The position numbers were made by a program, and so were the translations under genes. The notes under the pieces are model-generated. The model was given only the letters and a program-made list of their open reading frames with translations, was not told where the DNA came from and searched no databases. DNA of 27,900 nt from a virus: positions 1 to 27,900 of the IMG/VR virus record IMGVR_UViG_3300050130_000120; one strand, 5' to 3'. Positions 2,250 through 23,651 of the stretch are shown here, piece after piece (the first letter of the stretch is position 1; every line of letters starts with the position of its first letter).

Positions 2250-2878
2250 CGTTCTTCAGGGAATGGATGAAGCGCTGGCAAGAGCGCAACGCTCATGCGG
2301 TTGGCTACCGCTTCGGCGATGCGCCCACGGCGGACGAGGTCGCGGCGCAGGCCGCCGAGCATGCGCGCTGGAGCGAGAGAGAGAACGCGCTGCGGGCGGC
2401 CATTGCTAGCGATTTTCGATGGCCGTGTCATTCGCGTCCAAAGGGGGAGTGGTGCGCTCGCGAAGGGCCCGGCGGGTTCATTGCGCACACCTGCCGGCGG
2501 CCAGACGAGGACGAGGTCGCGGCGCCGGCCGTCTGGACCATCCGGTACGAGCAAAGGTCGCCTGACTGCGGCCTTACGGTGGCGCAGCACGCCCGGCTCG
2601 CGGAGCTGATCGAGGAGTGCGGCGAGGTGGTGCAGGCCGCGGCCAAGGTGCTCCAGTGCGGCTACGACGAGCGCTCGCGTCACGGGAAGGGCATGCCGCG
2701 GCGGGTCCTGCTGGAGCGCGAGCTGGGGCACCTGGAGGCGTCGCTCTCGGTGCTGTACGGCTCCGGCGACGCGCGGCGGTCTCAGGTACGCGTCTGGAAG
2801 GAGCGGCGGCTCGGCGTGCGGCATGCGTCCCCCGCGGCGGCTCCGACTTTGCGGCAGGAGAGCGAAGCGAGCCAGTGA
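2246..2878 (+). CDS. MazG-like all-alpha protein (putative nucleotide pyrophosphohydrolase relative)
   Basis: A 210-residue protein starting in an ATGA overlap. Residues 113-172 have the layout of phage MazG-like proteins: 'ARLAELIEECGEVVQAAAKV' with the metal-binding ExxE pattern (E123/E124/E127), a charged loop, then 'LLERELGHLEASLSVLYG'. In active MazG-type enzymes the second helix normally carries ExxD ('ELGDL'); here the last position is His162, so catalysis may be altered or lost. The N-terminal 110 residues contain a compact part with Cys61, Cys70 and Cys83 that I do not recognise. If active, such enzymes hydrolyse (d)NTPs to monophosphates. The C-terminus is Arg/Ala-rich and likely disordered. 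Confidence 0.6.
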   Translation: MTFFREWMKRWQERNAHAVGYRFGDAPTADEVAAQAAEHARWSERENALRAAIASDFRWPCHSRPKGEWCAREGPGGFIAHTCRRPDEDEVAAPAVWTIRYEQRSPDCGLTVAQHARLAELIEECGEVVQAAAKVLQCGYDERSRHGKGMPRRVLLERELGHLEASLSVLYGSGDARRSQVRVWKERRLGVRHASPAAAPTLRQESEASQ

Positions 2879-3966
2879 AAGACGTCGGGGCAACACGGAC
2901 GATCCGCGTCCGGGACAAGCGGAAGCCGGGGCACTGCTGGCAGGATAACGAGCTCTATGACGTTTTCCAGCCCGTCATCGGTGCCACCGCCACACACATC
3001 TATGCCGCGATGAGCCGGTGGGCTTTCGGACATCGCGTGGAGATGGGCATGAGGGAGATCGCTGTCGAATCCGGAACCAGCCGCAGCGCGGTGCAGCGTG
3101 CTTTGGTCGCCATGGAGCGGCTGGGCATGGTGCGCGGGGTGGCGGGGCGCGGACCGCAGCCGGCAGCCTACAACCTGCTCGACCTGAAGGAGGCCTCCAT
3201 CGCGCTTGGCGCGGAGTGGAATCCTCATCGAGCGTCGCACGGCCTGTCGCCGACTCGGGTTGCCGAGCTGCGAACGGCCGTCCTGCATTGCGTCCCATAT
3301 GGGGACACAAAAGCCGGTGGAAATCTCCCGGATTGTGTCCCACACGGGGACGCTTCTGGGACGCTACTGTCCCAGAAAAGGGGGGTTAGTGTCCCACACA
3401 GGGACGCTCATCTTTATATATATAAACAAGACACAAGACTACAAGACAACCATCCCCTACCCCTTCCGCCAGCGGAAGGGGGGCTGCGCGATGAATCGGA
3501 TTCTTCGGACATCGCACCAGCGGAAGGGGGGCTGCGCGATGAATCGGATTCTTCGGACATCGCACCAGCGGAAGGGGGGCTGCGCGATGAATCGGATTCT
3601 TCGGACATCGCACCAGCGGAAGGGGGGCTGCGCGACGAATCGGAATCTTCGGACATCGCGCTGGACCGCGAAGCGCAGCGGGTGCTGCGAGCCTGCGGAT
3701 CGACCTCGGACGGGGTGCTGCGCGTGATCCGCAAGCAGCTGGCGGAGCGTGTGCGCCCGGCGACGCCGGAAGGGCTCACGAAAACGGCGGAGTGGATGAT
3801 CGCGATGTGGGAGGACTACCGCACATGCGGCGATCGCGGCTGGCTGCGGTTCGTCTGGGGACCGCGCAAGTTCTTCGGCGATGGGCACTGGGCGAATTGC
3901 GCGCTGTGGCCGATCGATGAAGAGCGCCGCGAGATGTACGGCAGGGCTCGGGAGGGTGCGCGATGA
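2875..3966 (+). CDS. Replication initiator-like protein with N-terminal winged helix, gene carries candidate origin
   Basis: A 363-residue protein that I start at GTG 2875 (GTGA overlap with the preceding stop). The frame is open further upstream, but that part is Arg/Ala-rich shadow of the previous gene. Residues about 25-103 look like a winged helix-turn-helix: 'IYAAMSRWAF', then 'MREIAVESGTSRSAVQRALV' as the HTH, 'MERLGMVRGVAGRG' as the wing. Residues 140-177 are encoded by three iteron-like palindromes, followed by an AT-rich palindrome; residues 199-262 are four copies of a 16-residue acidic repeat ('PAEGGLRDESDSSDIA'). The C-terminal 100 residues include aromatic helices ('WMIAMWEDY', 'WLRFVWGPRKFF') like the C-terminal parts of phage replication proteins. 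The plan (DNA-binding head, origin in the middle, partner-binding tail) parallels lambda O. No helicase gene is visible, so recruitment of host helicase is inferred only. Confidence 0.7.
   Translation: MKDVGATRTIRVRDKRKPGHCWQDNELYDVFQPVIGATATHIYAAMSRWAFGHRVEMGMREIAVESGTSRSAVQRALVAMERLGMVRGVAGRGPQPAAYNLLDLKEASIALGAEWNPHRASHGLSPTRVAELRTAVLHCVPYGDTKAGGNLPDCVPHGDASGTLLSQKRGVSVPHRDAHLYIYKQDTRLQDNHPLPLPPAEGGLRDESDSSDIAPAEGGLRDESDSSDIAPAEGGLRDESDSSDIAPAEGGLRDESESSDIALDREAQRVLRACGSTSDGVLRVIRKQLAERVRPATPEGLTKTAEWMIAMWEDYRTCGDRGWLRFVWGPRKFFGDGHWANCALWPIDEERREMYGRAREGAR
3292..3450 (+). other. Candidate phage replication origin (iterons plus AT-rich palindrome)
   Basis: Three 15-bp imperfect palindromes of the form GTCCCAYAYRGGGAC lie at 3292-3306, 3337-3351 and 3391-3405. 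Between the second and third is an inverted arrangement of the same half sites: CTGGGAC and GTCCCAG with a 6-base spacer (3356-3375), a perfect 7-bp inverted repeat. Immediately downstream is a 14-bp perfect palindrome TTTATATATATAAA (3413-3426) and a C/A-rich low-GC stretch, in otherwise GC-rich sequence. Iterons next to an AT-rich unwinding element inside the initiator gene is the lambda-type origin design. Origin function is inference from this layout. Confidence 0.65.
3469..3660 (+). repeat. Four tandem 48-bp repeats
   Basis: Four head-to-tail 48-bp units start at 3469, 3517, 3565 and 3613. The first three are identical as read; the fourth has three substitutions. Each encodes the 16-residue acidic unit 'PAEGGLRDESDSSDIA'. 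They sit directly after the AT-rich element and inside the initiator-like gene. They may be a flexible linker at the protein level or an expanded part of the origin at the DNA level. Confidence 0.9.
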
Positions 3967-4322
3967 AAGGCGGACGCAAGCCAAACCCGTGGGGAACGCA
4001 GCGGTGTTACGCGCCGTCGCTTCGACGGCCGATGACGCCCGAGCAGGCCGCCGCGAAGGCGGAACGGCGGGCGGTCGAGGCGCTCCGGCGCATGAAAATC
4101 TTTCGCTCGGAGATCACGAAAAAGCGGGCCATGATCCGGAGCTGGCGTCTCGACAATCCCTACAGCAGCCGCCGCGCCTGGAGCATCCTGCTGCGCGCGA
4201 TGCTCGATGGCCAGCGTGAGGGGCGGATCGCAGCCCGTGAGCGCGCATGGGAGCGCCGGCGGCCGTCGCTGGGCGCGCAGATCGACCGCCTGATGGAACG
4301 GGCCAGCAGGAGGCGCGCATGA
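3963..4322 (+). CDS. Basic hypothetical protein downstream of initiator
   Basis: A strongly basic 119-residue protein of unknown function, coupled to the initiator-like gene by an ATGA overlap. It begins 'MKGGRKPNPWGTQRCY' and is largely helical with many Arg residues ('SSRRAWSILLRAMLDGQREG'). Charge and position suggest nucleic-acid binding, or a helper such as a helicase loader, since lambda-like phages place the loader gene (P) directly after the initiator (O). I see no AAA+ motif or similarity to lambda P, so this is only a positional guess. Its stop overlaps the next start by four bases. Confidence 0.55.
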   Translation: MKGGRKPNPWGTQRCYAPSLRRPMTPEQAAAKAERRAVEALRRMKIFRSEITKKRAMIRSWRLDNPYSSRRAWSILLRAMLDGQREGRIAARERAWERRRPSLGAQIDRLMERASRRRA

Positions 4323-5431
4323 GGCCGCCCGCTGGAGTGGAATGCGCGACCTGCCGGGGCGAGAAAAATCACCATTGCCAGGCGCAGATCTACGATGACG
4401 GCGTCGGTGGCGTCGCGCTGTGCCTGCCCTGCGCGGATGGCAAGCCCTGCGTGATCGATCGCGTGGGTGCGCCGCCGGCGCTCGGGTCAGTGGAAGCGCC
4501 CAGCTTCTTCAATCTCATCGAATCAGCAGCACCGCCGGCGCCGGTGATTCATCGCACGCCGGAAGAGCTGGGGATTCCCGCGATCGTGCCGGCGCATGCG
4601 GGCAGGCGTTGGCTATCTGACGAGGAGTTCGCGGAGAAGAAGCGCGAGGGCTTCGAGCTCGCGAATGCGGTGCGACGCCGCGAGCGGCAAAAGCCGGAGC
4701 CGAACTTCAGCGTGCGCGCGTATCGCACGCGAACGAAGCAGATGCAGGAGAAGGTCATCGCCGGCGAAAGGGTGCGGATGTCGCCGGGCGTGACGATGGG
4801 ACCGGAGATGCTCGCGCCGGAGCAGCGAACGCGCGGCGGATCGAAGCCGCGGAGGGCGCGGCATTTTCAGCCGGAAGATCTGGAGCGGAGGCGCAGGGAA
4901 TTGACCGAGCGCAATGTTGCGAAAGGCGCGGCGACGCGGGCGAAGGCGGCGGAGCTGCTCGGGACGGCGCCGGACAAGGCGATCGCCGGGCAGGCGGGCG
5001 TTTCGGCCTCGCGCGTCGCGCAACTGCGCAAAGAAAAGGGAATCGCACCGGTGGTGACGAGCAACAGCCATCCGGGCGAAAAACGAACGGAGGAAGCAAT
5101 GGAAGCAATGCGGGAGGCCGTAAAGAAGCTGGGCGGCAGGATGACGGATGCTGCGCTGGGCGAGCAGCTCGGCTGCAGCGGAAGCCGTGTCGGGCAACTG
5201 CGCAAAGAGTTTGGGATTCCAGCGGCCAGGCCGGGGCGCAAGCCGGGAGCGCCGGCGCAGACGGAGCAGCGGACGGTAGTGATTCCGGAAATGACGTGGG
5301 ACGGGTTGGCGGCCCGGCCGCGGCTGCAGCTCACGCCGGCGCAGGCGCGCGCGCGGCTGGCCAGGCTCACGCCACAGCAGATGGCGGTCGCGCTGGGCGC
5401 GGTGCTGCAGGCGTCGCTCAAGGAGGGCTGA
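4319..5431 (+). CDS. Zinc-ribbon and double helix-turn-helix DNA-binding protein
   Basis: A 370-residue protein; I chose ATG 4319 (ATGA overlap) over more upstream in-frame codons. The N-terminus has a Cys cluster (C9, C12, C20, C35, C38, C44) suggesting a zinc-binding module. Residues 95-200 are charged and poorly ordered. Two related homeodomain-like HTH units follow: residues about 213-242 ('DKAIAGQAGVSASRVAQLRK') and 270-300 ('TDAALGEQLGCSGSRVGQLR'), both ending with 'LRKE(K/F)GI', evidently an internal duplication. The C-terminus has 'LTPAQARARLARLTPQQMAV'. Such tandem HTHs occur in phage regulators and DNA-organising proteins. It may be a transcription regulator of this operon; no specific family is assigned. 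Confidence 0.65.
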   Translation: MRPPAGVECATCRGEKNHHCQAQIYDDGVGGVALCLPCADGKPCVIDRVGAPPALGSVEAPSFFNLIESAAPPAPVIHRTPEELGIPAIVPAHAGRRWLSDEEFAEKKREGFELANAVRRRERQKPEPNFSVRAYRTRTKQMQEKVIAGERVRMSPGVTMGPEMLAPEQRTRGGSKPRRARHFQPEDLERRRRELTERNVAKGAATRAKAAELLGTAPDKAIAGQAGVSASRVAQLRKEKGIAPVVTSNSHPGEKRTEEAMEAMREAVKKLGGRMTDAALGEQLGCSGSRVGQLRKEFGIPAARPGRKPGAPAQTEQRTVVIPEMTWDGLAARPRLQLTPAQARARLARLTPQQMAVALGAVLQASLKEG

Positions 5432-5438
5432 AGCGCAA

Positions 5439-5708
5439 ATGGCTCGTCGACGTTCCCCCGAAGACGAAGAGTTCTACCTGCAACTCGGCCGACGCATCGA
5501 GGCCGCACGCAAGCGCAAAGGATGGAGCGCGGATCAGCTGGCGCAGGAGGCGGGTATCCGGAACCGAGCGCAGGTGTATCGCTATGAGTCGGGCGAAAAT
5601 GCCATCCCGGCGCCGGCGCTGGCGCGGATCGCGGCGGTCCTGCAGGTATCGGTGATCGATCTGCTTCATCCGGGACTGATCCACGAATGGAGGTTAACTC
5701 GCGTTTGA
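5439..5708 (+). CDS. XRE/Cro-CI-type HTH regulator in the late-regulator position
   Basis: An 89-residue one-domain DNA-binding protein with a strong ribosome site (AAGGAGG, overlapping the end of the preceding gene). Residues about 13-66 are a classic XRE HTH: 'RRIEAARKRKGWSADQLAQE' for helices 1-2, 'NRAQVYRYESGENAIPAPAL' for the recognition helix and turn, then 'ARIAAVLQVSVIDLLHPG'. There is no divergent partner gene or operator region beside it, so it does not look like a lysogeny switch pair. It is the last gene before the structured late-control region, the position occupied by Q in lambda; a role in switching on late genes is inferred from that location. Confidence 0.8.
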   Translation: MARRRSPEDEEFYLQLGRRIEAARKRKGWSADQLAQEAGIRNRAQVYRYESGENAIPAPALARIAAVLQVSVIDLLHPGLIHEWRLTRV

Positions 5709-5728
5709 TGCGCCACACGCATTTTCTG

Positions 5729-5756
5729 TTGCGCGGCGGCGAGAAGCGTTTAGAGT
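5729..5756 (+). promoter_or_regulatory. Weak candidate late promoter
   Basis: TTGCGC (5729-5734) and TAGAGT (5751-5756) are separated by 16 bases. Matches to the -35 and -10 consensus are only partial (3 of 6 and 4 of 6). The main reason to list it is position: transcription from about base 5763 would produce the structured RNA that follows. A regulated late promoter is expected to be weak. Confidence 0.35.
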
Positions 5757-5762
5757 AGGCAG

Positions 5763-5870
5763 CGGAATCAATCCAACAATCTTGCCGGTGCAGGCAACCG
5801 GACCGTGTATGGCGGGTCATGCCATAGTCAGGCCGAAGAGACGGAAACGTGTCTTTGGCCTTTTCCTTTT
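5763..5870 (+). ncRNA. Structured leader or small RNA of three hairpins ending in a terminator
   Basis: The 176-base gene-free region after the XRE gene holds three successive hairpins: CCGGT/ACCGG (5785-5801), a perfect TATGGC/GCCATA stem with a 7-base loop (5808-5826), and the terminator at 5831-5870. The first can refold as the mutually exclusive TTGCC/GGCAA (5782-5797). The 5' end is unmapped and set from the weak promoter candidate. I do not recognise a known riboswitch or ribozyme. The arrangement matches the short lambda 6S RNA between pR' and tR', or an HK022 put-like leader. Both are analogies only. Confidence 0.5.
5831..5870 (+). terminator. Strong intrinsic terminator before late genes
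   Basis: A 13-bp stem with one G-G mismatch and one G-U pair (5831-5843 with 5848-5860) closes on a GAAA tetraloop and is followed by TTTTCCTTTT. It ends 15 bases before the next start codon, so the downstream genes need read-through, antitermination or another promoter. Confidence 0.8.
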
Positions 5871-5884
5871 GGGAGTGAAAACGT

Positions 5885-6331
5885 ATGCGGGTTTGGCGCG
5901 ACAGCGACCGACAGCGGAGCAAACTGCTGCTCTACGGTGCGAACACGACACTGGGGTGGCGGATTCTGCGCACGATCTATGCGCGCGAAGGCGAGCGCGG
6001 TGTGGAGCGCGGGACGATGCGCATGGTCTACGACGAGATCAACGGTCACCTGCTGGGCTATCAGGTTCTGGGCACGAGCGAGCAGCGGGGAGATCAGGAT
6101 CTGCCTTCGATGCCCTCCGCGGCTTCGATTTCGTACAGCGAGATGCAGATCAATGCCGGGACGGCGTTCGAGAAGGGAAAGTCGCACACCGCTGGACTGC
6201 CGGAGCATCGCCGAGCGGAGCGGCACATTCCCGAGGATCGCGTCGAGCGCGTCCAGCAGAAGGTTCGGATGTTTGAGAGAAGGATCGGCCCGGCGAGGGG
6301 CGACATCCTGCGGGTGTGGCCGAAGGCATGA
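5885..6331 (+). CDS. Hypothetical protein, first gene of the late block
   Basis: A 148-residue soluble protein starting 15 bases after the terminator, with GGGAGTG as ribosome site. The N-terminal part contains 'LLLYGANTTLGWRILRTIYA' and 'VYDEINGHLLGYQVLGT'; the C-terminal half is charged and helical with 'ERVQQKVRMFERRIG'. I do not recognise the family. As the first gene after the late-control region, ahead of the lysis genes, it could be a late accessory protein, but nothing in the sequence shows a function. It overlaps the next gene by ATGA. Confidence 0.6.
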   Translation: MRVWRDSDRQRSKLLLYGANTTLGWRILRTIYAREGERGVERGTMRMVYDEINGHLLGYQVLGTSEQRGDQDLPSMPSAASISYSEMQINAGTAFEKGKSHTAGLPEHRRAERHIPEDRVERVQQKVRMFERRIGPARGDILRVWPKA

Positions 6332-6567: not shown

Positions 6568-6825
6568 GTGGCAACTGTGCATCTCGACGAAGAGTGGCCG
6601 AAGGCGAAAGGCACAGTCGAAGTGATGCTCGGCCGGCACAGCGCGCTGCTTGACGGCAACGGCAACGGTGAGCGCGGGCTCGTGAGCGTGGTGGCACGGA
6701 TACAGACCGAAGAGACGATTGTGCGGGATCGGCAGCACAGGATCAATCAGCGCTGGATGCTGCTCGTCGCTCTGATTCCGGTCCTGATTAAAGTGCTCAC
6801 GATGATGGGCTGGTTGCCGAAATAA
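6568..6825 (+). CDS. C-terminally anchored small membrane protein, haemolysin XhlA-like shape
   Basis: An 85-residue protein starting at GTG 6568, directly after the previous stop. A charged, helical N-terminal part ('ARIQTEETIVRDRQHRINQR') is followed by one hydrophobic segment at about residues 63-82 ('WMLLVALIPVLIKVLTMMGW'). This soluble helix plus C-terminal anchor is the shape of XhlA-type proteins beside phage lysis genes. It sits immediately before the endolysin (one-base overlap). A lysis accessory or holin-related role is likely by position, but the similarity is architectural only. Confidence 0.6.
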   Translation: MATVHLDEEWPKAKGTVEVMLGRHSALLDGNGNGERGLVSVVARIQTEETIVRDRQHRINQRWMLLVALIPVLIKVLTMMGWLPK

Positions 6826-7385
6826 TGGCGACGCCTGAACAGGTGGAGTTCCTGCGGAGGGCTTGCGGAGCGGCCCGGCTCGCGCATCACGTTTGGTCCG
6901 AATACGCAGCCTGCGAAGCGGCGCTCGAAACAGCGTGGGGGACGTCGCGGCTGTATCTGCAGGGCAACAATGTCTTCGGCGAAAAGCAGCACGCGAAGCC
7001 GGTGTTTCTCACGGTGACGCTGCCGACGCGCGAATACCGGTACGGCGTGGGCTGGATCACGGTGCAGGCGCCGTTTATCTGGTTTCCGTCGCCGATTGAG
7101 GCGTTCGAGATGCGGATGCAGACGCTGCGGCGGCTGGCGGTGGAGAAGAACAGCGCCGGCGAGCTCGAATATCCCGAATATGCCGCGGCGCTGGCCGCGA
7201 CGTCGGGAGAAGCGTTCGTGACGGAAGTTTCAAAGCGCTGGTCGACGGATCCCGAGCGCGGCGCGAAGGTGCTGGAGATCTTCAACGCGCACATGGATGT
7301 GTTTGCGCAGAGCGCGAACCAGGAGGAAGGCAAATGGGCAGGCAACCGATATCGATTTCAGGCGGCAACGCGACGCCGGCAGTGA
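6825..7385 (+). CDS. Endolysin, GH73 glucosaminidase-like
   Basis: A 186-residue peptidoglycan hydrolase candidate. The signature is at residues 30-53: 'CEAALETAWGTSRLYLQGNN' followed by 'VFGEK', matching the GH73 N-acetylglucosaminidase pattern (family 'ALExxWG...NNxFG'). Glu35 is the predicted catalytic acid. Length fits a single-domain endolysin. There is no signal peptide or signal-anchor, so export would need a holin; two candidates follow directly. The reading frame's last 52 bases overlap the next gene, and the C-terminal tail is basic. In the cell it would cleave the glycan strands of the host wall at the end of infection. Confidence 0.8.
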   Translation: MATPEQVEFLRRACGAARLAHHVWSEYAACEAALETAWGTSRLYLQGNNVFGEKQHAKPVFLTVTLPTREYRYGVGWITVQAPFIWFPSPIEAFEMRMQTLRRLAVEKNSAGELEYPEYAAALAATSGEAFVTEVSKRWSTDPERGAKVLEIFNAHMDVFAQSANQEEGKWAGNRYRFQAATRRRQ

Positions 7386-7552
7386 GTACGGCGTCGCATT
7401 TCTTCGCCAATTACAAGACCACGCTGTGTGGACTGGCCGGCGCAGCGCTGCTCGCGGTGCAGACCTACAACGGCGGCGGCGGATGGAAGGGCTACGTCGG
7501 CGCGGCGCTGGTCGCGGTCTGCGGCGGCCTGATGAAGGACTTCAACGCTTGA
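7334..7552 (+). CDS. Small membrane protein, holin candidate 1
   Basis: A 72-residue protein with an excellent ribosome site (GGAGGAAGG) located inside the end of the endolysin gene. It has two hydrophobic stretches, about residues 28-45 ('YKTTLCGLAGAALLAVQTY' region) and 50-66 ('GWKGYVGAALVAVCGGLMKD'), with a short polar turn. This matches small two-segment holin-like proteins in lysis cassettes. There is no direct proof, and the adjacent gene is a second candidate; one of the two may be an antiholin or structural membrane protein. Confidence 0.6.
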   Translation: MGRQPISISGGNATPAVSTASHFFANYKTTLCGLAGAALLAVQTYNGGGGWKGYVGAALVAVCGGLMKDFNA

Positions 7553-7878: not shown

Positions 7879-8411
7879 TTCGACGCATCGCAATTCTTGC
7901 ATTCATCTTCGCGCTGGCGCTGAGCTTTGGCTTTGCGCAGACGGTTGTAGCTCCGGCAGTTCCCGCCGCGCCTGCAACCGGATTGCACTTTGCCACTTCG
8001 GTGCAGGCCATCGAGCTGGACATCGCCGGCACCACGGCGGCGGCGGAGAGCACCATCGCAACGCTCGACTTTACAGCCACGACACAGATTCAGGGACAGG
8101 CGATTGTCGGGCCCGGCTACAAAGGCTACTACGGCGGCCTGCAGTGGACGCCCGATTTCTCGAAGCTGATCGCAAAGACGCTGCTGCCTGCGGACACTCT
8201 GCAGCCGTATCTCAGCGGCGCGGGCGGCGTCGGTCAGCAGGCGGACGGAATCAATCACGCCTCGGTGATCGTTGGCGGCGGCATGAACTACGATCCCACA
8301 GGTACCGGGCACTTCTCGGTGCAGGCTGGACGCTTCGATTACGTGCGTGTCGGCTCGAAGAACGGCTGGGCTGTGGGCGGCGGCATTTCCATCATCTTCC
8401 CGCAGTCCTAA
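7875..8411 (+). CDS. Exported barrel-like protein in the lysis cassette
   Basis: A 178-residue protein with a clear Sec signal peptide (residues 1-21, 'RR' then a hydrophobic core, cleavage after GFA before Gln22). I start it at ATG 7875 in an ATGA overlap; upstream open sequence belongs to the previous gene. The mature part has no cysteines and alternates polar and apolar residues in strands separated by Gly-rich turns ('GYKGYYGGLQW', 'VIVGGGMNYDP', 'WAVGGGISIIFPQS'), which suggests a small outer-membrane or secreted beta-barrel. It could modify the host surface or assist outer-membrane disruption; neither is shown. Family not recognised. Confidence 0.65.
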   Translation: MIRRIAILAFIFALALSFGFAQTVVAPAVPAAPATGLHFATSVQAIELDIAGTTAAAESTIATLDFTATTQIQGQAIVGPGYKGYYGGLQWTPDFSKLIAKTLLPADTLQPYLSGAGGVGQQADGINHASVIVGGGMNYDPTGTGHFSVQAGRFDYVRVGSKNGWAVGGGISIIFPQS

Positions 8412-8415
8412 GCCA

Positions 8416-8790
8416 GTGCCGAGTGCTGCCAAAAGGCCATGCGCGCGGCCGGGATGTCCAAACCTGGTCGCGCGTGGGTACTGTGCCAGCTGTCAGCCCG
8501 TGTACAGCTCGAAGGCGCTGACGGAGCAGCGGCGGCCGAGCGCGCACAAGCGCGGCTACACGCGCAAGTGGGATGCGGCGAGCAAAGGATTCCTGCGGTC
8601 GAATCCGCTGTGCGCCGGCTATCCGCGGGGCGTCCATGGCGAACGGCCGGTCGCGGCAGAGGTGACGGATCACCTCGAGGCAGCGGCGAAGCGGCCTGAT
8701 CTGTTCTGGGAGAGATCGAACTGGCAGCCGCTATGTGGTAACTGCAACAAAAGAAAGAACATCGCGGAAGAGGGCGGCCTGAGGGGGTAG
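8416..8790 (+). CDS. HNH endonuclease, packaging-associated
   Basis: A 124-residue protein, started at GTG 8416 just after the previous stop. The N-terminus has a Cys pair pattern ('CARPGCPN', 'GYCASCQ') and the C-terminal half has the HNH signature: 'VTDHLEAA' supplies the first His, then 'NWQPLCGNCNKRKN' gives the Asn and the CxxC/K end of the fold. HNH proteins encoded next to terminase in HK97-type phages help the large terminase cut cos ends. The intergenic region just downstream is therefore a candidate cos site. An alternative reading as a selfish homing enzyme is less likely given the conserved HNH-TerS-TerL order. Confidence 0.85.
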   Translation: MPSAAKRPCARPGCPNLVARGYCASCQPVYSSKALTEQRRPSAHKRGYTRKWDAASKGFLRSNPLCAGYPRGVHGERPVAAEVTDHLEAAAKRPDLFWERSNWQPLCGNCNKRKNIAEEGGLRG

Positions 8791-9017: not shown

Positions 9018-9476
9018 ATGTCCAGACCGCGCACACCGACCGCCGTCCTCGAACTAAAGGGATCGTTCCGCAAGAATCCCAAGCGGGGTGAGGAGCGAGC
9101 ATTCGAGCCGCGGTCGACCGGCCATTGTGAGCCACCGGCACAGTTCCTGCGCACGGACGTCTCCGAGTTCGCGCGCTACCTGGCGATCTGGAAGGAGACG
9201 GTTGCGATTTGCTGGTGGCTGACGCCAGCCGAGGCCGGTCCGCTCGCCAGCTATTGTCGTTTGAAGGACAAGGAAAACCGCGGCGTAGCGAAGCCGGCGG
9301 ATCTCAGCAACCTCATCAAGCTGTATCCGATTTTGGGCATGACGCAGGATGGAAGAGCAAAGTTCAGAGAACGCGGCGCGGAAGCGCTCGGCGAAGGCGC
9401 CTCGAAAGGCCCGCACGCGCAAGCCGACGACTGGGAGAACATCGCCGGCGAAGCCGAGCGCCTCCGAATCGTCTAA
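9018..9476 (+). CDS. terS: Terminase small subunit
   Basis: A 152-residue protein beginning 'MSRPRTPTAVLELKGSFRKN', the N-terminus typical of small terminase subunits of the P27-like type ('RPPTALLELxGSFRKxP'). The central helices ('DVSEFARYLAIWKETVAICW', 'LSNLIKLYPILGMT') match the oligomerisation region of these proteins. It recognises the packaging site and regulates the large subunit. It sits after the repeat-bearing candidate cos region and overlaps the large terminase gene by 128 bases in another frame, an unusually long overlap. The ribosome site is weak (GGTGA). Confidence 0.8.
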   Translation: MSRPRTPTAVLELKGSFRKNPKRGEERAFEPRSTGHCEPPAQFLRTDVSEFARYLAIWKETVAICWWLTPAEAGPLASYCRLKDKENRGVAKPADLSNLIKLYPILGMTQDGRAKFRERGAEALGEGASKGPHAQADDWENIAGEAERLRIV

Positions 9477-11208
9477 GCGCAACTATGCCGAGATCGCGCA
9501 CCGCTATGCGCGCGACGTCGTCGCCGGTCTCGTTCCGGCCTGCAAGTGGGTGCGTCTGGCATGCCGGCGTCACCTGCGGGATCTCGCAAGGTCTCGCGAG
9601 AAGGATTATCTGTATCGGTTTGACGCGGCCCGGGCGAACCTGCCTTGCCGCTTCATCGAGAAGCTGCCGCACACGCGTGGCCAGTGGGCGCGTGTGCGGC
9701 GCGGACATTCAAACCGGATCCAGCTCGAGCCGTGGCAGATCTTCATCGTCTGCGCGATCTTCGGCTGGATCAACAAGGCGACGCGCTTCCGCCGTTTCGC
9801 CGAGGCCTACATCAAGGTGCCTCGGAAAAACGCGAAGAGCACCCTCGCCGCGGCGATCGGCCTGTACATGCTCATGGCCGACGGCGAGTACTCCGCGGAG
9901 GTCTACAGCGGCGCGACGAAAGAGAAGCAGGCCATGGAGGTCTTCAAGACCGCATGGCGCATGGTCAGGAAGACGCCGGCGCTGGAGGATTATTTCGGGA
10001 TCGAGTCGGCGATCAAATCGCTGTATCGCCGGGAGGACGGGAGCAAGTTCGAACCGCTGGTGGGGGATCCCGGGGACGGCGCCTCGCCCAGCTGCGCGAT
10101 CGTCGACGAGTATCACGAGCACGACACCTCGATCCTGCACGACACGATGCAGACCGGGATGGGTTCGCGGGAGCAGGGGCTGGTCATCGACATCACGACC
10201 GCGGGCAGCAAGATCGAGGGCCCGTGTCACATCCTCGAACGCGACGTCGAGAAGCTCCTCGACGGTTTGGTCGAGAACGATGCGCTGTTCGGCATCATGT
10301 ACGGGATCGACCTGGAGCCGTACGAATGGGACGGCGTCAAGGTGCCGGTCGACGACTGGAAAACGGAGACCGCGCTTCGCAAAGCGAATCCGAACTACGG
10401 CGTCTCGGTGTTCGCGACGTTCCTGCAGAAGCAACTGCGTGAGGCGATCCAGAGCGCGCACAAGCAAAACACGTTCAAGACAAAGCACGAGAACGTGTGG
10501 GTCAACGCGGCGATCGGGTATTACAACGTGGAGGCCTGGCGCCGCTGTGCGGATCCAAGCCTGAATCTCGATCAGTTCAGGCGCGAGAAGTGCTGGGAAG
10601 GCACCGATCTCGGAGCGAAGGACGATCTGGCTTCGAGGGTTAAGGTGTTTCGCCGCATCGTCGGTGGCGCGGTGCACTACTACGTGTTCGGCCGGCATTA
10701 TGTGCCGCACGACCGGGCGATGGATGGGGACCATTCGCACTACGAACGCTGGATTGCCGACAACCAGCTGCAGGCGCATGCCGGCGCGGAGATCCAGCTG
10801 GAAGCGATCCAGAAGGAAATCGAGGACGAACTCGGGACCTTCGACTTTCAGTGTTTGGCTTTCGATCCATGGGGGGCTCTGCAAATGCAGCAGGAACTCG
10901 CGCTGAAGCTCTCCGAGGATGTGGTGCTGAGCATCCCGCAGACGGTGCAGTACCTGTCGGCGCCGATGAAGGAGATCAACGCCGCCTCGCTGGCCGGCAG
11001 GATCCATCACGACGGCGATCCGGTGCTGGCCTGGGCCATCTCGAATGTGATCGCGCGCGAGGACAACAACGAGAACGTGTTTCCGCGTAAGGAAAAAGGC
11101 GGGAACCAGAAGATCGACCCGCACAGCGCGCTGTTGAACGCGATGAACCGGGCCATGGTGGGCGACACGCGTCGCCCGTTTACGCCGCCGATGATGGGGT
11201 ACATGTGA
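9349..11208 (+). CDS. terL: Terminase large subunit, HK97-type
   Basis: A 619-residue DNA-packaging motor with ATPase and nuclease. The family match begins at about residue 45 ('YAEIAHRYARDVVAGLV'). Walker A is 'VPRKNAKST' at residues 157-165 and Walker B 'AIVDE' at 250-254. The nuclease part starts near 'GTDLGAKDDLAS' and includes 'LAFDPWG' and 'DPVLAWAISN', the acidic and aromatic landmarks of this family. Residues 1-43 are a Lys/Arg/Pro-rich tail overlapping the small terminase; no later ATG or GTG precedes the conserved part, so ATG 9349 is the only reasonable start. It translocates DNA into proheads at the portal. Confidence 0.92.
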   Translation: MEEQSSENAARKRSAKAPRKARTRKPTTGRTSPAKPSASESSKRNYAEIAHRYARDVVAGLVPACKWVRLACRRHLRDLARSREKDYLYRFDAARANLPCRFIEKLPHTRGQWARVRRGHSNRIQLEPWQIFIVCAIFGWINKATRFRRFAEAYIKVPRKNAKSTLAAAIGLYMLMADGEYSAEVYSGATKEKQAMEVFKTAWRMVRKTPALEDYFGIESAIKSLYRREDGSKFEPLVGDPGDGASPSCAIVDEYHEHDTSILHDTMQTGMGSREQGLVIDITTAGSKIEGPCHILERDVEKLLDGLVENDALFGIMYGIDLEPYEWDGVKVPVDDWKTETALRKANPNYGVSVFATFLQKQLREAIQSAHKQNTFKTKHENVWVNAAIGYYNVEAWRRCADPSLNLDQFRREKCWEGTDLGAKDDLASRVKVFRRIVGGAVHYYVFGRHYVPHDRAMDGDHSHYERWIADNQLQAHAGAEIQLEAIQKEIEDELGTFDFQCLAFDPWGALQMQQELALKLSEDVVLSIPQTVQYLSAPMKEINAASLAGRIHHDGDPVLAWAISNVIAREDNNENVFPRKEKGGNQKIDPHSALLNAMNRAMVGDTRRPFTPPMMGYM

Positions 11209-18731: not shown

Positions 18732-18765
18732 CAGGGCCGGGCAACGTTCCGGCCCTGATCTTTTT
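18732..18765 (+). terminator. Intrinsic terminator after the tail tube gene
   Basis: CAGGGCCGG/CCGGCCCTG is a perfect 9-bp stem with an 8-base loop (18732-18757), followed by ATCTTTTTAA. It lies 12 bases before the next start codon and would cut transcription into the tail chaperone gene unless antiterminated. Confidence 0.8.
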
Positions 18766-18777
18766 AAGGGTGTAAAA

Positions 18778-20381: not shown

Positions 20382-20409
20382 AAGCCGCCTTTCGGGGCGG
20401 CTTTCTTAT
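20382..20409 (+). terminator. Intrinsic terminator closing the moron unit
   Basis: AAGCCGCC/GGCGGCTT is a perfect 8-bp stem with loop TTTCGG (20382-20403), followed by TCTTATT. It lies between the moron and the gp10-like gene. Confidence 0.85.
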
Positions 20410-20422
20410 TGGAGGCACGGCG

Positions 20423-23605: not shown

Positions 23606-23637
23606 AACAGCTCCGCTCACCGCGGGGCTGTTCTTTT
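23606..23637 (+). terminator. Intrinsic terminator between tape measure and fibre gene
   Basis: AACAGCTCCGC/GCGGGGCTGTT forms an 11-bp stem with one wobble pair and a 5-base loop (23606-23632), followed by CTTTT. It separates the exported fibre-like gene from the tail operon; I see no convincing promoter in the 110-base gap, so the fibre presumably relies on read-through. Confidence 0.75.
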
Positions 23638-23651
23638 GGGGGAGATCTCCG

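Follow-up and report, generated by a model that had tools for sequence, protein, structure and literature searches.

A conserved leader RNA between an XRE gene and the late genes of a phage as a candidate antitermination element

What is known of late-gene antitermination comes mainly from the lambdoid phages that infect enteric bacteria. In the Q systems of these phages (lambda, 21, 82, and HK022), a regulator gene lies upstream of a promoter, a short RNA, and an intrinsic terminator in front of the lysis genes, and a -10-like box lies within the initial transcript, an element that Q requires (PMC6606751). The Q proteins of different phages occupy the same position and do the same job but have no sequence similarity (PMC7171158). 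In HK022 (AF069308), the slot after Q contains the promoter TTGACT-N17-TAAATT together with a short leader and a terminator.

We analyzed a 27.9-kb virus record, here called the window (IMG/VR record IMGVR_UViG_3300050130_000120, positions 1 to 27,900). It contains a locus that resembles the lambdoid Q systems in all of these parts, including the -10-like box, and its layout is truly lambda-like, as the HK022 slot is composed in the same way. All on the + strand, an XRE gene is followed by a non-coding stretch, the first late open reading frame (ORF5885), a small ORF, a holin-like ORF, a glucosaminidase/endolysin gene, an HNH gene, the TerL gene, and the structural genes. The features are:

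4247–5431, + strand: regulator-like ORF, 394 aa, with an N-terminal Cys/His cluster, weak HTH-like repeats, and a conserved C-terminus
5439–5708, + strand: XRE (Cro/CI-type HTH) gene, 89 aa (HTH_31, E 7e-12; HTH_3, E 6e-10)
5708–5722, + strand: perfect inverted repeat ATGCG-N5-CGCAT just 5' of the -35 box
5729–5756, + strand: putative late promoter TTGCGC-N16-TAGAGT, predicted transcription start near 5763
5775–5780, + strand: -10-like hexamer AACAAT, about +12 to +18 in the predicted transcript, within the conserved box ACAATnTTGCC
5785–5801, + strand: hairpin 1, CCGGT-GCAGGCA-ACCGG
5808–5826, + strand: hairpin 2, TATGGC-GGGTCAT-GCCATA
5830–5871, + strand: intrinsic terminator, stem AGGCCGAAGA.ACG GAAA CGT.TCTTTGGCCT, then TTTCCTTTT; kept in relatives
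5885–6331, + strand: ORF5885, 148 aa, no known family, start about 20 nt past the terminator
6568–7552, + strand: lysis region with the holin-like ORF (6568–6825), the glucosaminidase/endolysin gene (6825–7385, E 4e-13), and a small ORF (7334–7552)
8347–8790, + strand: HNH protein gene
9349–11208, + strand: TerL gene, with the structural genes after it

The first-pass annotation of this DNA had proposed an XRE gene, a weak promoter, a structured RNA, a strong terminator, and late genes in this order, and the ORFs, the Pfam matches, and the folding confirmed both the order and the coordinates. Its comparison with lambda, which extended from the regulator, the weak promoter, the short structured RNA, and the terminator to the lysis, terminase, head, and tail genes, is likewise supported by the gene annotation. 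The gap between the XRE gene and ORF5885 comprises 176 non-coding nucleotides (5709–5884), within which the weak promoter is followed by a leader of about 70 nt with two hairpins and by the strong intrinsic terminator. No promoter fits in the roughly 20 nt that separate the terminator from ORF5885, and late transcripts must therefore either read through the terminator or start inside ORF5885. Homologues of ORF5885 were found neither in annotated phage records nor in the species genome collection, which was covered by one protein scan of the genome contigs; a search for a solved relative found none, and the predicted structure was poor (pLDDT 55) and was left unused.

The phage is most likely a temperate prophage in tRNA-Lys, as the near-identical relative G001, a 41.8-kb record, has an integrase gene (L107:10505–12073, E 2e-16) and the same tRNA-Lys(ttt) near both of its ends. 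These tRNA copies (L106:64–139 and L107:12589–12664, the right one with the integrase gene nearby) are probably attL and attR. Although it seems to integrate, this phage also encodes, in its early region, a 531-aa ParB-like protein with ParB_N and HTH_ParB domains (L106:1593–3188). In the window, ORF 2617–3966 encodes a protein with an HTH domain that is probably a replication protein, and positions 3400–3700 within it contain near-perfect coding tandem repeats, about four copies of (AP)AEGGLRDESDSSDI. Collagen-like GPTGATG repeats occur in two tail-fibre-like genes with a similar N-terminus (around 24600 in the window, and L107:8896–10218).

Two proteins encoded upstream of the leader could be regulators. 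The XRE protein passes the Pfam cutoffs of HTH_31 (46.0 bits versus 27) and HTH_3 (39.6 versus 23), and its gene is present in all four phages that carry the RNA, with only 35–47% identity to the XRE proteins in the same slot of divergent relatives. The protein encoded at 4247–5431 could be a second late regulator. It is kept in L005, L010, and L013, where the HTH-like repeats vary in number and the C-terminal motif LTPxQARxxLxKLTPxQMAxALGAVLQxSL is strongly conserved; no clear counterpart was present among the listed ORFs at the corresponding place of L097, and no family was found for it or its three homologues. In agreement with the earlier statement that the regulator is unrelated to Q, neither this protein nor the XRE protein matched the Q families PF06530, PF03589, and PF06323 (list from PMC7171158) in a Pfam scan to E 0.1. 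The inverted repeat ATGCG-N5-CGCAT, which has no second exact copy in the window and is not kept in the divergent relatives, is a possible XRE operator. In a comparison of window 5439–6331 with L005:2558–3444, DNA identity was 82% in the XRE gene, 99% in the RNA, and 97.5% in ORF5885, which places a mosaic boundary between regulator and RNA, as if the regulator were swapped independently of the RNA and ORF5885.

The promoter pattern TTGCG-N17/18-TANNGT has a single match in the window, at the putative late promoter, with 0.17 matches expected. Its boxes are kept in L010 and L013 at a spacing of 16–17 bp, while the sequence of the spacer is not. The promoter is weak and matches the consensus poorly, and a sigma-70 scan recognized no promoter at the leader or for ORF5885. 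The -10-like hexamer reads CACAAT in L010 and TACAAT in L013; no other hexamer in any of the three leaders is closer to a -10 box. It begins at about +11 to +14 and is a candidate sigma-dependent pause element.

A protein search with the XRE protein and ORF5885 yielded two close relatives, and a search with TerL yielded the two informative ones, L010 and L013, whose TerL proteins are 91% and 88% identical to that of the window. The order of XRE gene, promoter, RNA, first late ORF, lysis genes, and terminase is the same in both. Among the divergent sequences, nucleotide identity was 68–74% in the RNA, 52–56% in the XRE gene, 62–67% in ORF5885, and 39–54% in the segment immediately preceding the RNA, so the non-coding RNA piece is conserved above both flanking genes. 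The segment 5745–5885 folds with -52.6 kcal/mol versus a shuffle mean of -40.9 kcal/mol (z -2.96), of which the terminator alone, with -21.9 kcal/mol for its stem at 5830–5861, could give much.

The hairpins were therefore assessed by covariation in a sample of four divergent sequences and a near copy. The first-pass annotation had named a lack of stem conservation in relatives as a refutation, but the stems are conserved. In the five-sequence model-based alignment, 92% of the pair cells are standard, and double-sided changes occur in 9 of the 24 pairs (14 cells), with a covariation score of 0.42; these counts lean towards structure, as the alignment was fitted to it and four of the five rows (three of the divergent sequences and the near copy) built the model. 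None of 500 shuffles matched these values, slid controls had at most three double-sided pairs, and the compensatory changes are also visible in a plain MAFFT alignment. Double-sided changes affect three of the five pairs of hairpin 1, in which all cells are paired, and four of the six pairs of hairpin 2. The arms of hairpin 1 are CCGGT/ACCGG, CCAGC/GCTGG, CCGGT/GCCGG, and CCCGA/TCGGG across the rows, and those of hairpin 2 are TATGGC/GCCATA in the window and TGCAGC/GCTGCA in L013. The fifth row, from the distant phage L097, is only a weak model match (E 7e-5 in 584 kb), but it lends independent support, as it lies precisely in the interval that separates an XRE gene from an ORF5885 homologue. 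L018, a more distant phage, has an ORF5885 homologue (E 6e-21) with neither an XRE gene nor the RNA before it, and a pattern scan of genomes returned four loci without a convincing model match (best L102, E 0.09). Judged from these alignments, the three RNA hairpins, the predicted terminator being the last, are kept by evolution and their pairing is under selection.

An RNA that switches between two folds is not supported. The first-pass annotation had pointed to two mutually exclusive pairings of hairpin 1; both exist in the window and in the near-identical relative, but the TTGCC/GGCAA pairing is not conserved, keeping 5, 5, 3, 1, and 1 of its 5 pairs over the five rows, and a switch was rejected. 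An attenuator-like pairing between the leader box and the terminator's 5' arm was rejected as well, as shuffled leaders did at least as well in fractions of 0.20–0.84 across all five rows. As neither the alternative pairing nor the leader–terminator pairing stood out, a riboswitch- or attenuator-like two-state fold finds no support. A small ORF in the leader was also discarded, the ATG near 5809 not being in frame in L010 or L013. Rfam gave no match in the window at the gathering threshold (best weak match ctRNA_p42d, 21.3 bits versus 50). By the absence of Rfam and Q-family matches, the parts of this gate appear to come from no known family.

On balance we lean, if only slightly, towards a conserved late-operon leader in which an RNA element, perhaps together with the XRE protein, lets polymerase pass terminators. 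Transcription would begin at the weak promoter just past the XRE gene, near 5763, and produce the leader with its two selected hairpins; by default it would stop near 5865 and leave a short RNA. When late genes are needed, polymerase would be modified at the leader, where the conserved -10-like box may pause it meanwhile, and would then pass the leader terminator and further intrinsic terminators to reach the lysis, packaging, head, and tail genes. The signal is probably read as RNA, given the compensatory changes that maintain hairpins 1 and 2. It could be read by polymerase itself, as with put, by a protein, as with nut, or by the two together, as with conAn. The XRE protein would be the first candidate for a phage factor, or it may control the promoter. 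Its links to the RNA are adjacency and co-occurrence in the four phages. The more specific proposal of a new processive antitermination system for late genes, in which the nascent structured RNA acts together with a small XRE protein, a repressor-type HTH protein co-opted as antiterminator or processivity factor, and the hairpins serve as its loading site, is tentative and in our estimate unlikely.

Three more strong intrinsic terminators are predicted in the late region, at gene boundaries on the + strand:

18732–18766, + strand: internal terminator CAGGGCCGGGCAACGTTCCGGCCCTGATCTTTTT, between two ORFs
20382–20410, + strand: internal terminator AAGCCGCCTTTCGGGGCGGCTTTCTTATT, between two ORFs; G002 has the same sequence
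23607–23638, + strand: internal terminator ACAGCTCCGCTCACCGCGGGGCTGTTCTTTT, between two ORFs; G002 has a near-identical version and G015 similar hairpins

Similar hairpins are found in the late regions of G014 and G015, and G002 has the terminators at 20382 and 23607. In conjugation operons, internal terminators are regarded as a good sign of processive antitermination (PMC8955417). Here they could also be partial and tune gene dosage alone, or be trailed by unrecognized promoters.

A Q-like mechanism acting at the level of DNA is a distinctly unlikely alternative. The XRE protein or the 4247–5431 protein would bind promoter DNA and engage a paused polymerase, with the hairpins being secondary. 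The regulator gene is positioned as Q is, the -10-like box is conserved, and the Q slot could be taken by an HTH protein from a different family, because Q proteins share place and job and not sequence. However, the -35/-10 spacer, where Q binds, is unconserved, a search covering direct repeats found no QBE-like 6-bp direct repeat beyond shuffles, and the compensatory change in the RNA hairpins is unexplained by Q systems. As Q reads DNA, whereas here the RNA fold is selected, recognition at the RNA level is favored.

We consider it more unlikely still that the leader is a free-standing, trans-acting small RNA with the late genes driven from elsewhere. Promoter, structured body, and terminator do resemble a small-RNA gene, and lambda likewise makes a short RNA in the corresponding position. 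However, no other promoter of ORF5885 was recognized, and in each of the four phages the location is coupled to the first late ORF. Small RNAs that act by base pairing moreover usually preserve an unpaired seed, whereas here the stems are conserved, although the ACAATnTTGCC box could be such a seed.

Less probable again is an operon end, at which the terminator would stop early transcripts after the XRE gene and the hairpins would belong to a 3' untranslated region, without regulated read-through and with the late promoter inside ORF5885 or later. Such terminators are common at early/late boundaries and the leader promoter is weak, but the promoter-like boxes after the XRE gene are conserved, and conservation is higher in the leader than in either gene.

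We consider it very improbable that the XRE protein uses the inverted repeats as DNA operators and that the apparent RNA stems are half-sites. The regulator is an XRE protein and the window has arms of 5–6 bp with 7-bp spacers, but hairpins 1 and 2 share no half-site sequence, and the loop of hairpin 1 varies among the relatives (7, 7, 4, and about 8 nt), a variation at odds with a dimer operator.

The locus is thus best described as a phage late-operon leader, with antitermination as its probable function. The candidate is compact, spanning about 120 bp together with one or two small genes. Its RNA is supported by covariation and absent from Rfam, and it occurs in uncultured temperate phages for whose first late gene annotated phage records contain no relative. 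If the leader lets polymerase through terminators, it would represent a further, RNA-based route to late-operon opening and possibly a new job for XRE proteins. By sequence, the 89-aa protein belongs to the Cro/CI (XRE) phage regulators (RstR, P22 C2, SinR-like HTH), but here the XRE gene precedes the late operon.

With no Q-family match and no model match in the HK022 PL/PR region, the locus is grouped with neither Q nor put. It differs from the lambdoid Q systems in that the regulator is an XRE protein without a Q-family match, no QBE-like direct repeat beyond shuffles was found, two hairpins selected for pairing precede the terminator, and the terminator abuts the first late gene. A put-like antitermination element, one of the readings that the first-pass annotation gave for the first hairpin, may apply. 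With the put RNA of HK022 the leader shares a length of about 70 nt, two stem-loops, and a position near the promoter and close to polymerase, as well as a -10-like element near the transcript start, which is also reported for putL (PMC9378689). However, put, which works by RNA alone through the beta' zinc-binding domain and for which an RNA triplex has been described, acts on early operons, whereas the leader described here precedes a late operon, and the RNA model R1, run with filters off against HK022 22000–40751, gave no significant match in the PL/PR region. On HK022 the model scored best in the Q/pR'/tR' slot, with 12 bits and E 0.04, but this match was borne by the terminator and is not interpreted as homology. 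As for lambda N/nut, in which a boxA (about GCTCTTTA) comes before a boxB hairpin, reading 5763–5830 by eye revealed no boxA-like sequence. The conAn systems of conjugative plasmids, such as pLS20, are similar in having an element at the operon start, several internal terminators, and a protein gene together with an RNA (PMC8955417); they are known from Gram-positive plasmids, and the likeness is one of layout. Taken together, put, nut, or conAn are closer counterparts of the leader than Q is, because the fold of the leader RNA is under selection.
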